A stretch of DNA of 40,274 nucleotides, from the NCBI RefSeq assembly GCF_012910805.1, contig NZ_WTVK01000050.1:1-40274 (forward strand). Reading direction: 5' to 3'. The notes under the pieces are model-generated. The model was not told where the DNA came from, made no database searches, and saw only the letters and a program-made list of their open reading frames with translations. This document shows positions 29,856 to 32,491 of this stretch, one piece after another (position 1 is the first letter of the stretch; each line of letters opens with the position of its first letter). Origin of the DNA: Aromatoleum evansii. GTDB lineage: Bacteria; Pseudomonadota; Gammaproteobacteria; Burkholderiales; Rhodocyclaceae. The position numbers were made by a program, and so were the translations under genes.

Positions 29856-31136
29856 TCAGCCGATCATGCCCGCGCCGACGGTGTTGTTGGTGCTTTCGTC
29901 GATGATGATGAAGGCGCCGGTGGCGCGATTCTCGAGGTAGGGGTCGGCGAAGATCGGTTGCGCGAGTTTGAGCGTCAGGCGGGCGATATCGTTCATCGCG
30001 AGCGCGGTCGCGGGTTCCTGTGCGAGCGTGTTCACGTCGAGCCGGTAGTCGATCTTGGCGACCTTGGCCTTCACTTCGCGCGTGGTGTGGCGCAGGAGGT
30101 AGGTGCGGGCGGGCGACATGGGCGTCTCGGACAGCCAGCACAGGGTGGCGTCGATCTGTTTCAGTTGTTCGGGCTGTTCGCTGCTCTTGACGATCATGTC
30201 GCCGCGCGAGATGTCGATCTCGTCGGCGAGCAGCAGGGTGACGGACTGTTCGTGGATCGCGCGCTCGATGCTTTCGCCGCCGATCTGGATGTCCTTGACG
30301 GTGCTGCTGCGGCCCGAGGGCAGGACGGTGACGGCGTCGCCGACCACGATCTCGCCCGATTCGACGCGCCCCATGAAGCCGCGATAGTCGTGCAGCTCGG
30401 GGTTGGCGGAATCCTGCGGGCGGCAGACGAACTGCACGGGGAAGCGGAAGTCTTCGGCCTGTTCGGTGTGGGCGGCGGGCACGTTCTCGAGGACTTCGAG
30501 CAGCGTCGGACCGTCGTACCAGCCGAGGCGCTCGCCGCGGTCGACGATCATGTCGCCGTTGAGGGCGGACAGGGGGATGAAGCGGACGTCCTTGATGCCG
30601 AGCTTTTCGGCGAAGACGAGGTAGTCGGCCTTGATGCGTTCGAAGGTGGCCTGGTCGTAGTCGACGAGGTCCATCTTGTTGACCGCCACCAGCAGATGCG
30701 GAATGCCGACCAGGCTCGCTAGGTAGGAGTGGCGGCGGGTCTGGGTGAGCACACCCTTGCGCGCATCGACGAGGATGATGGCGAGGTTGGCGGTGGAGGC
30801 AGCGGTCACCATGTTGCGGGTGTACTGCTCGTGGCCCGGGGCGTCGGCGATGATGTACTTGCGCGTGCCGGTGGAGAAGTAGCGGTAGGCGACGTCGATG
30901 GTGATGCCTTGCTCGCGCTCGGCCTGCAGGCCGTCGGTGAGCAGCGAGAGGTCTACCGCGCTCATGCCGCGCTTGGCGGAGGTCTTCTCGATGGCGTTGA
31001 GGGTGTCGGCGAGGATGGTCTTGGTGTCGAACAGCAGACGGCCGATCAGGGTGCTCTTGCCGTCGTCGACGCTGCCGCAGGTGAGGAAGCGCAGCAGGCC
31101 GTGGTCGGTGTCGGGCAGGTTTTCGAGGGCGGACAT
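29856..31136 (-). CDS. cysN: Sulfate adenylyltransferase subunit 1 (GTPase)
   Basis: 426 aa. EF-Tu-like GTPase: G1 CGSVDDGKST (20-29), G3 DAPGHEQY, G4 NKMDLVD, then two beta-barrel domains. Together with CysD it makes APS from sulfate and ATP, using GTP hydrolysis. It has no fused APS kinase (CysC), in keeping with an APS reductase downstream in the pathway. cysN normally abuts cysD, but here 419 bp of repeat-bearing non-coding DNA separate them. A terminator follows. Confidence 0.96.
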   Translation of the reverse strand: MSALENLPDTDHGLLRFLTCGSVDDGKSTLIGRLLFDTKTILADTLNAIEKTSAKRGMSAVDLSLLTDGLQAEREQGITIDVAYRYFSTGTRKYIIADAPGHEQYTRNMVTAASTANLAIILVDARKGVLTQTRRHSYLASLVGIPHLLVAVNKMDLVDYDQATFERIKADYLVFAEKLGIKDVRFIPLSALNGDMIVDRGERLGWYDGPTLLEVLENVPAAHTEQAEDFRFPVQFVCRPQDSANPELHDYRGFMGRVESGEIVVGDAVTVLPSGRSSTVKDIQIGGESIERAIHEQSVTLLLADEIDISRGDMIVKSSEQPEQLKQIDATLCWLSETPMSPARTYLLRHTTREVKAKVAKIDYRLDVNTLAQEPATALAMNDIARLTLKLAQPIFADPYLENRATGAFIIIDESTNNTVGAGMIG

Positions 31137-31203
31137 GGTTTTGATTCCTTCAGATCTTTCGAGAATTCTGTTTGCTGCTTGATTCGTTGATTCTGGCCGG
31201 TGC

Positions 31204-31316
31204 TGCTAATCCGCCGGCGCCGCGCGGGGTATTCGCTCTGCGGCTGCGGAACTCGCGCAGCGGCGCGCTTCCGCGCCTGCGCTCAGACAGTCCTCGCCGC
31301 GCCGCGAACACCCCGC
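31204..31316 (-). repeat. Palindromic repeat element, copy A (inverted relative to copy B)
   Basis: Core 31224-31316 (93 bp), read on the minus strand from GCGGGGTGTTCGC to GCGAATACCCCGC, which pair as a 13-bp outer stem with one G-U. Inside are GGACTGTCTGAGC, an inner GCAG-GCGCG / CGCGC-CTGC hairpin and GAGTTCCGCAGCCG. Similarity to copy B continues outside the core to GATTAGCA. It resembles a REP-like extragenic element. Confidence 0.8.
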
Positions 31317-31404
31317 ACGTCCCCGGCTACGTTCCGGGTTGGCGAAGGGCTGGGTTCAATACGCCTTTGCCTTTAACGTTCCGCCTGCACAGAGCAAGAG
31401 CTGG

Positions 31405-31514
31405 GCGGGGTGTTTGCGGAGCGGCGAGGACTGTCTGAGCAGACAGCGCGGACGCGCGCTGTACTGCGAGTTCCGCAGCCGACGGAGCAAATTCCCCGCC
31501 CGGCTCGATTAGCA
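31405..31514 (+). repeat. Palindromic repeat element, copy B
   Basis: Core 31405-31499 (95 bp), GCGGGGTGTTTGC to GCAAATTCCCCGC. The first 36 nt match copy A at 34 positions, and GAGTTCCGCAGCCG is identical. The inner stem is longer (ACAGCGCG/CGCGCTGT, loop GACG), with ACA on one arm answered by TGT on the other. An 88-bp spacer separates the copies. No coding region is supported in 31137-31555. Confidence 0.8.
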
Positions 31515-31529
31515 CCCCGCACTTCATGC

Positions 31530-31550
31530 AGCCGAAGACCAAATTCGGCT
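31530..31550 (-). other. Small hairpin just after cysD
   Basis: Seven-bp arms AGCCGAA and TTCGGCT with a 7-nt loop, five bases past the cysD stop. No U-tract. It could protect the cysD message end. Confidence 0.35.
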
Positions 31551-31555
31551 TGTGC

Positions 31556-32491
31556 TTAGAAATACCCTTCCTTCTTCCGCTGCTCCATCGAGGCCTCCGA
31601 GGTCTGGTCGTCCAGACGGGTGGCGCCGCGCTCGGTGATGGTGGTGGTGGCGGTTTCGATCACGATCTTCTCCACGGTGTCGGCGTCCGACTCCACGGGC
31701 GCCGTGCAGGAGATGTCGCCAACGGTGCGGAAACGCACCTGCCGTTCGACGATCTCCTCTCCGGCCTTGGGCAGGTTGGTCAGTTCGCCGGTCATCAGCG
31801 GCACATTGACCGGCACGATGGCGCCCTCGCGGATGACCACCGGGCGCCGGTGGGCGAAGTAGATCGACGGCAGTTCGAGCTTCTCGCGCTCGATGTACTG
31901 CCACACGTCCATCTCCGTCCAATTGCTGATCGGGAAGGCGCGGATGTTCTCGCCCTTGTGGCTGCGCGCGTTGTACAGGTTCCACAGCTCGGGGCGCTGG
32001 TTCTTCGGGTCCCACTGGCCGAACTCGTCGCGGAAGCTCATGATCCGCTCCTTCGCGCGGGCCTTCTCCTCGTCGCGGCGGGCGCCGCCGATGCAGGCAT
32101 CGAAACCGAATTCCTCGATCGCCTCGAGCAGCGTCACCGACTGGTGCTTGTTGCGCGACTCGTTCTCGTGCTTCAGGACGACTGTGCCGCGCTTCATGGA
32201 GTCTTCCACCGAGCGGACGATCAGCCGCTCGCCCAGCTCGGCGGCGCGCTTGTCGCGGAACTCGACCACTTCCCTGTAGTTGTGGCCGGTGTCGATGTGC
32301 ATCAGCGGGAAGGGGAAGCGGCCCGGGCGGAACGCCTTCTCGGCGATGCGCAGCATGCAGATCGAGTCCTTGCCGCCGGAGAAGAGCAGCACGGGGTTCG
32401 CGCACTGGCCGGCGACCTCGCGCATGATGTGGATCGCCTCGGCTTCGAGCCAGTCGAGGTGGGTCAGGGTTTGACGGGTCAGCGTGGACAT
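31556..32491 (-). CDS. cysD: Sulfate adenylyltransferase subunit 2
   Basis: 311 aa PP-loop ATP pyrophosphatase. LLFSGGKDSICMLRIAEKAF near residue 35 is the ATP-binding loop, and HIDTGHNYREVVEFRD and GGARRDEEKARAKER are family motifs. The tail SMEQRKKEGYF is the conserved CysD terminus. With CysN it activates sulfate to APS. It begins 8 bp after the 53-codon ORF and is followed by the repeat-bearing gap rather than by cysN directly. Confidence 0.96.
   Translation of the reverse strand: MSTLTRQTLTHLDWLEAEAIHIMREVAGQCANPVLLFSGGKDSICMLRIAEKAFRPGRFPFPLMHIDTGHNYREVVEFRDKRAAELGERLIVRSVEDSMKRGTVVLKHENESRNKHQSVTLLEAIEEFGFDACIGGARRDEEKARAKERIMSFRDEFGQWDPKNQRPELWNLYNARSHKGENIRAFPISNWTEMDVWQYIEREKLELPSIYFAHRRPVVIREGAIVPVNVPLMTGELTNLPKAGEEIVERQVRFRTVGDISCTAPVESDADTVEKIVIETATTTITERGATRLDDQTSEASMEQRKKEGYF

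Follow-up and report, generated by a model that had tools for sequence, protein, structure and literature searches.

The cysD-cysN gap of a sulfur operon in Aromatoleum evansii holds two inverted elements, A and B, which are best explained as two subtypes of one dispersed, structured, non-coding repeat family of ~100-125 nt, a REP-like repeat whose folded single strand would be recognised by a putative factor. This explanation, which goes in part beyond what was observed, is given as a whole a probability just above one half (0.52); the repeat family itself is real, structurally constrained and REP-like. The window, by which we mean the whole stretch of DNA that was analysed (40,274 nt), comes from a 5.94-Mb draft genome, which is G000 in our genome set.

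On the minus strand of the window, the gene order is a cysI-like reductase gene (with family matches that all lie under the cut-off), a cysH-like gene (its name given by position and sequence), then cysD and cysN, and last a downstream gene that has no family match (Table 1). An earlier note on this DNA had described two elements of opposite orientation within the 419-nt gap, and they are present: the identity of 34/36 between A and B is borne out over the 36 nt ending in GAGGACTGTCTGAGC (counted by eye), the outer-stem C-G of A does become T-A in B, the apical stems differ largely as described, and the element coordinates were correct to within a few bases, the present boundaries being slightly wider. 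A repeat search places the arms of the A/B inverted repeat at 31281-31337/31384-31440 and 31241-31276/31446-31481.

Table 1. Features of the cysD-cysN region, in window positions.
Feature	Position	Strand	Remarks
cysD, sulfate adenylyltransferase small subunit	31556-32491	minus	above NCBIfam CysD cut-off
cysN, sulfate adenylyltransferase large subunit	29856-31136	minus	above NCBIfam CysN cut-off
cysD-cysN intergenic gap, 419 nt	31137-31555		422 nt if the cysD stop codon is counted
element A	31205-31330	minus	same sense as cysDN; made up of outer stem, core and apical hairpin, with GGATTAGC as 3' tail
element A, 5' core strand GAGGACTGTCTGAGC	31281-31295	minus	
element A, 3' core strand GCGAGTTCCGCAGC	31243-31256	minus	16-mer at 31241-31256
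element B	31394-31513	plus	antisense to cysDN
element B, outer stem	31398-31410 and 31494-31506	plus	GAGCTGGGCGGGG (first interval) pairs with CCCCGCCCGGCTC (second interval)
element B, 5' core strand GAGGACTGTCTGAGC	31426-31440	plus	
element B, 3' core strand GCGAGTTCCGCAGC	31466-31479	plus	16-mer at 31466-31481
spacer, 63 nt	31331-31393		separates the 5' ends of the two elements; poorly conserved

An ordinary terminator or promoter was rejected as the identity of the gap, positions 31100-31600 containing no intrinsic terminator (0 sites, 0.9 in shuffles) and no promoter-like site, although the promoter negative is barely informative since shuffles yield only 0.1 sites. Some copies in other taxa have T-rich 3' flanks. 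Rfam gave no relevant match in 30900-31800 or at 9 other loci; a MIR918 match of 45 bits (gathering 268) spans the long A/B inverted repeat.

Each element, at ~120 nt, has a core (GAGGACTGTCTGAGC ... GCGAGTTCCGCAGC) set between an outer stem and an apical hairpin, both of which vary. Inward of the outer stem lies an internal loop, GA/GCA; the core stem has 5 bp (GGACU/AG-U-UCC) with a bulged U, and in the core loop the 6-nt GUCUGA stands opposite a single G, after which the apical hairpin begins. The loop bases are near-invariant across the element alignment, and the core, with a tandem G-A beside GUCUGA, may be read as a candidate k-turn. On the motif strand, the two elements fold with z-scores of -4.4 and -5.4, and none of 200 dinucleotide shuffles folded as well; the complement strand folds less strongly (z -3.3 and -3.5, dinucleotide shuffles). 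An alternative right arm, GCGC.CA.TTG.GT.ACCTCCGCC or similar with a small hairpin, takes the place of the usual GAGTTCCGC, always at an identical point, in L043, L045, L048, L055, L056, L061, L079 and L208, which represent several loci within the genus together with another genus (L048) and an additional contig of the genome collection (L208); by eye, this arm could pair along the left core.

The family ranges more widely than the two-copy locus alone could reveal. As the earlier note had suggested, a genome search with the cores finds further copies in the genome itself and in its relatives: the 15-nt core has six exact copies in G000 (the reversed pattern had 0 matches, and the 18-mer gave the same result) and occurs exactly in 22/61 genomes, its own included, and the core model R1 matches 24/61 genomes, own and relatives, with 1-31 copies each and 177 in total. 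Across the order, model matches extend to 66/300 genomes and 32/140 genera, and these counts together support the proposal of a small dispersed element without a gene of its own. A scan of a wider collection with a 29-base gapped pattern, for which the chance expectation is far below one by an arithmetic estimate, returned at least 119 stretches. Among the matches listed are sequences titled Gallionella, Sideroxydans, Thauera, Sulfuricella, Dechloromonas and Litorivivens, together with MAGs titled Coriobacteriales, Coriobacteriaceae, Eggerthellaceae, Atopobiaceae, Campylobacteraceae, Desulfobulbaceae and Ca. Uhrbacteria. Single MAG matches may reflect contamination; one Coriobacteriaceae MAG has 14 model matches over eight contigs. 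Element B had no match at E 0.01 in the plasmid and phage collections, and the viral contigs contributed one matching stretch. Two individual cases may be recorded here: L057 2919 (G000:C301), where the left core is kept and the right core is absent, is probably a decayed copy, and at L112 6618-7563, in a Coriobacteriaceae MAG, copies flank a cyclodeaminase-like gene in a folate-like operon (ORFs by reading).

That structure was retained after divergence, as had been claimed from the two copies, is supported by covariation across the family and by compensatory changes at the cysDN locus. The alignment A5 (150 model matches, 140 distinct, fitted to the model) has a covariation score of 0.297, as against 0.068 for shuffles and no more than 0.045 when partners are slid, a control over which the structures are favoured, being derived from the same sequences. 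Double changes fill 231 cells vs 78 and are present in all three helices (outer stem, core stem and apical hairpin); a core-stem pair is GC in 128 rows and CG in 11, and the base of the apical stem turns from CG to GC in 29 rows, the 11 and the 29 coming from the model search. The seed alignment A1 scores 0.197 vs at most 0.045. Two cruder counts, made by pair, do not stand out from shuffles: in A5, eight pairs have a double change vs 6.9 in shuffles (117/500 shuffles as high) and there are 27 further pair types vs 23.7 (33/500 as high), and in A1 five pairs have a double change vs 4.9 (469/500 as high), with 173/500 shuffles as high for pair types. The invariance of the core is partly by construction, because most seeds and distant copies were picked by exact core strings, and gene conversion between copies is another way to keep cores alike. 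At a single locus, the 14 cysDN copies of B (13 genus members and one Azoarcus MAG) have 97.2% of cells paired vs 93.6% in shuffles and double changes at nine pairs vs 3.8 expected, a count that 0/500 shuffles reached. One pair of the B outer stem takes GC, AU, CG, UA and UG across these copies, and in several genomes the stem is altered in both arms in a compensatory manner.

The placement of the copies bears on whether the constraint acts through RNA. Gaps were scored with a home-made gene caller, which missed some genes, such as the cysH-like gene of the window, and orthologous copies were counted repeatedly; 13 copies fell inside called genes (at least three of them owing to an over-extended cysN start), and 30 at contig edges were left out. 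The 145 scored gaps comprise 123 co-directional, 20 convergent and two divergent ones, and the copies are thus extragenic and mostly 3' of genes, as is typical of REP elements. The principal alternative is a structured RNA, in which the motif strand, transcribed by read-through or from its own promoter, would serve as an mRNA stabiliser, a processing signal or a protein-binding site. Comparable RNA roles have been proposed for REP elements, and the location downstream of at least one gene in 143/145 scored gaps, the stronger folding of the motif strand than of its complement (-83.4 vs -69.7 and -73.8 vs -62.4 kcal/mol) and the RNA-like look of conserved loops and G-U wobbles are all consistent with it. 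Against it stands the orientation of the copies, which in co-directional gaps is sense in 67 and antisense in 56; the missing promoter-like site adds little weight.

Wobble pairs were informative in the same respect. With G-U and A-C scored alike on the motif strand of 244 elements, related copies being counted many times, G-U prevails overall (248 vs 104), as it does in sense copies (93:26), antisense copies (66:20) and copies with no gene call (76:46); the bias is absent in convergent gaps (11:12). Within the genus, the ratios are 67:12 for sense and 27:7 for antisense copies; outside it, they are 26:14 and 39:13, the bias being weaker in the sense copies there. The variable pairs of cysDN B show 10 G-U to 3 A-C, and those of its outer stem 10:0 cells on the antisense strand, a count in which independent events are fewer than cells. 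The corresponding 27:2 for A refers to pairs taken from an RNA fold, which itself favours G-U, and derives mostly from two pairs with G-U as the commonest state. Because the motif strand of B lies opposite the cysDN mRNA, selection via that mRNA does not explain B, and the G-U excess in both sense and antisense copies speaks against the cysDN mRNA as the sole route of selection. The bias is about equal in antisense copies, whose motif strand lies outside the host mRNA, and this weighs against the structured RNA, which we consider unlikely though still a serious candidate. The G-U bias as such fits DNA and RNA alike and does not discriminate between them.

The arrangement of copies and the transposase content of their hosts address another possibility, namely a RAYT-dependent REP/REPIN system in which two REPs form a unit moved by a genome-encoded Y1 transposase. 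Among the 150 of 177 matches listed, 30 pairs of neighbours lie <700 bp apart, 22 head-to-head, seven tail-to-tail and one direct, so that the preference for inverted pairs noted earlier holds for 29/30 pairs, or ~13/14 when orthologous loci are counted once. This dominance favours such a system, as do the dispersed, palindromic character of the element and the bulged T in its core stem, but cysDN itself accounts for 11 of the 22 head-to-head pairs, and the seven tail-to-tail pairs are probably one locus. The latter pair recurs in seven genus members with alike sequences and at L054 is flanked by a urtD-like and a urtE-like gene (by reading), both for transporter ATPases. Singles, moreover, dominate in G019, a genome of the same family, in which 28/30 copies are a single ~100-nt unit with differing flanks, ending near -31 and +31 of the core, where conservation drops from 0.77 to 0.47 and from 0.83 to 0.30. 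The prevalence of inverted neighbours would fit the REPIN-like pair proposed in the earlier note, but a REPIN unit is doubtful given these sharp-ended single copies.

Several details of copy architecture were also recorded. Five to six of the 28 unit-sharing copies in G019 are extended by a common 20 nt on the left; an extension like ATACGGCTTCCAACAAGTAA stands at the end of minority copies at L426, L430, L432, L434, L435 and L447, and at L426 and L430 it has an inverted partner on the opposite side. Copies in G023 are often head-to-head, with seven pairs 196-287 nt apart among the matches listed, and several pair spacers at L308-L321 include a further palindrome that looks like a GTAG-type REP (GTAGCC...GGATTCCGGCC...GGGCTACG). 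Head-to-head pairs 0.9-2.4 kb apart occur at L100, L114, L129, L157, L217, L323 and L324; those at L114, L129, L217, L323 and L324 enclose small genes that differ from one pair to the next, as if by an exchange of cargo, and L323 and L324 are alike only close to their ends. No autonomous partner was found between the paired copies that were read, as L114, L129, L217, L323, L324, L327 and L112 hold differing genes (names by eye).

The link to REP/RAYT transposition that had been put forward was not borne out by a PF01797 profile search for Y1 transposases. PF01797 matches occur in 38/61 genomes and in 14/24 of those bearing R1, which is compatible with a RAYT-dependent system. There is, in opposition to it, no match in the other 10 of the 24 (G000, G002, G005, G009, G012, G013, G014, G015, G019 and G036, with 3-30 copies), among them the genome of the window, where a RAYT/Y1 gene had been suggested as a check, and the copy-rich G019 (30) and G036 (12). 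PF01797 is likewise absent in six of another set of 11 copy-bearing genomes, which includes some already counted; among the six are G199, G261 and G317, despite 12-15 copies. The closest Y1 match to any copy lies 11.3 kb away, among the copies listed (150 of 177) and compared in part, and no tag of the GTAG or CGTC kind is common to the copies. A Y1 enzyme may have been lost or be very divergent in the match-free genomes, and we regard dependence on a genome-encoded RAYT as improbable.

The cysD-cysN gap itself was surveyed at 30 loci, with gap lengths that include the cysD stop codon. A cysD of this type is found in 16/17 Aromatoleum genomes, and 14 of these 16 have the inverted pair in gaps of 378-494 nt. 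The other two, G008 and G010, have pair-free gaps of 47 and 84 nt, and 14 loci from other genera lack the element and have gaps of 2-155 nt, so the comparison of spacing in relatives that had been recommended does reveal short gaps without the pair. An Azoarcus MAG (L146) has a pair adjoining a cysD-like end (by eye). Over 12 genomes, the elements are conserved at identities of 0.905 (B) and 0.908 (A), compared with 0.552 for the spacer and 0.505 and 0.726 for the flanks on the cysD and cysN sides. The shared position suggests that most species of the genus inherited the pair from an ancestor in whose cysD-cysN gap it had arrived, and that the stems since changed in a compensatory way, while A and B probably exchanged apices to some extent. 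These apices are apparently swapped in G005 and G013, and copies recombine, judging from this apparent exchange and from the alternative right arm recurring at several loci. A comparable filled and unfilled state is seen at a putative pair of ring-hydroxylating dioxygenase subunit genes, whose gap measures 198-213 nt in the four genus members that have one element there, as against 10 nt in G010. In the single filled/empty locus aligned, no target-site duplication was recognised by eye. A search for an empty site at the L059 locus met two or more matching stretches in several genomes.

A control of the CysD:CysN ratio, which the earlier note had entertained, would follow if A and B formed one long hairpin in the cysDN transcript. 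The entire gap is foldable as a single long A-B duplex (-241.5 kcal/mol) far better than its shuffles (z -11.9), so there may be a transcript-level role, and the pair is kept in 14/16 genomes. This account is nonetheless very improbable: the outer stems of A and B differ, that of B covaries with its own partner and shows G-U rather than A-C on the strand opposite the cysDN mRNA, and the pair is lacking in G008, in G010 and in the 14 loci surveyed outside the genus. Least probable of all is a neutral fossil, a once-mobile element conserved just by recent origin and gene conversion, with which the apparent apex exchange and the recombining right arms would agree, but against which speak the greater divergence of the cysDN spacer and flanks and the compensatory changes in the B stem.

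We return to the proposed REP-like repeat, which would be recognised in the form of a folded single strand. The recognised form would be the folded motif strand, most likely as single-stranded DNA exposed in replication, and recognition would proceed through the unpaired core by a putative trans-acting protein, presumably other than a Y1 (RAYT/IS200) transposase, that spreads or keeps the element. Its effect on cysDN is probably passive: where other loci have gaps of a few to ~150 nt, this one has 419 nt, and the longer gap could loosen CysD-CysN translational coupling while the gene order stays intact. More tentatively, the family may form a phylum-crossing class of structured mobile elements whose internal-loop core is asymmetric and conserved; a putative factor unrelated to Y1 transposases would propagate and keep them in folded single-stranded form, and operons would tolerate them in both orientations. 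The core is alike in Betaproteobacteria and in MAGs titled Coriobacteriaceae/Eggerthellaceae, with stems that change and yet remain paired, which points to a widespread partner reading unpaired bases. Finding that partner would show how RAYT-free repeats spread, and the filled and unfilled gaps (cysDN and the dioxygenase-like pair) offer natural experiments on spacing and subunit stoichiometry.

Among known systems, MITEs are short, non-coding, hairpin-forming and dispersed. The present element shares these properties, as well as an end extension in some G019 copies, but differs in that its core rather than its ends is conserved and that neither a target-site duplication nor an autonomous partner was found. 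REP, BIME and REPIN elements are extragenic, palindromic and dispersed, form inverted dimers and carry a bulged base in the stem, all of which holds for the present element. Unlike a REP of 20-40 nt, the present element spans ~100-125 nt and has no fixed tag: a common GTAG or CGTC beside a 20-40 nt stem-loop was not found in these ~100-nt units, and by eye A-type copies have GTAG at their 5' edge, which B and the common G019 type lack. Compared with REPs served by RAYTs, as presented in PMC2817692, its two-sided internal-loop core is common to distant taxa and many of its hosts have no RAYT match. CGTC-tagged REPs, as reported in PMC3733652, have a CGTC tag, an 8-9 bp stem and a 4-5 nt loop, are found in five phyla mostly as head-to-head dimers and are not associated with transposase genes. 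The present element is similar in its head-to-head dimers and lack of transposase association and dissimilar in its three stems and different core.

The core strings were not found in print in the literature searched, the Beta-proteobacterial repeat element (BRE) being a possible named relative. Genome G004, which we take to be A. aromaticum EbN1, has three model matches vs one reported BRE. In PMC3110155, BRE is a GC-rich, mostly intergenic repeat of ~90 bp in several Betaproteobacteria, with suspected mobility, one copy in Azoarcus sp. EbN1 and possible head-to-tail tandem arrays, unlike the present copies, which form no such arrays. By description, on which this comparison is made, the two are alike in size, intergenic place and occurrence in Betaproteobacteria (PMC3110155), and part of the present family may already have been named as BRE.
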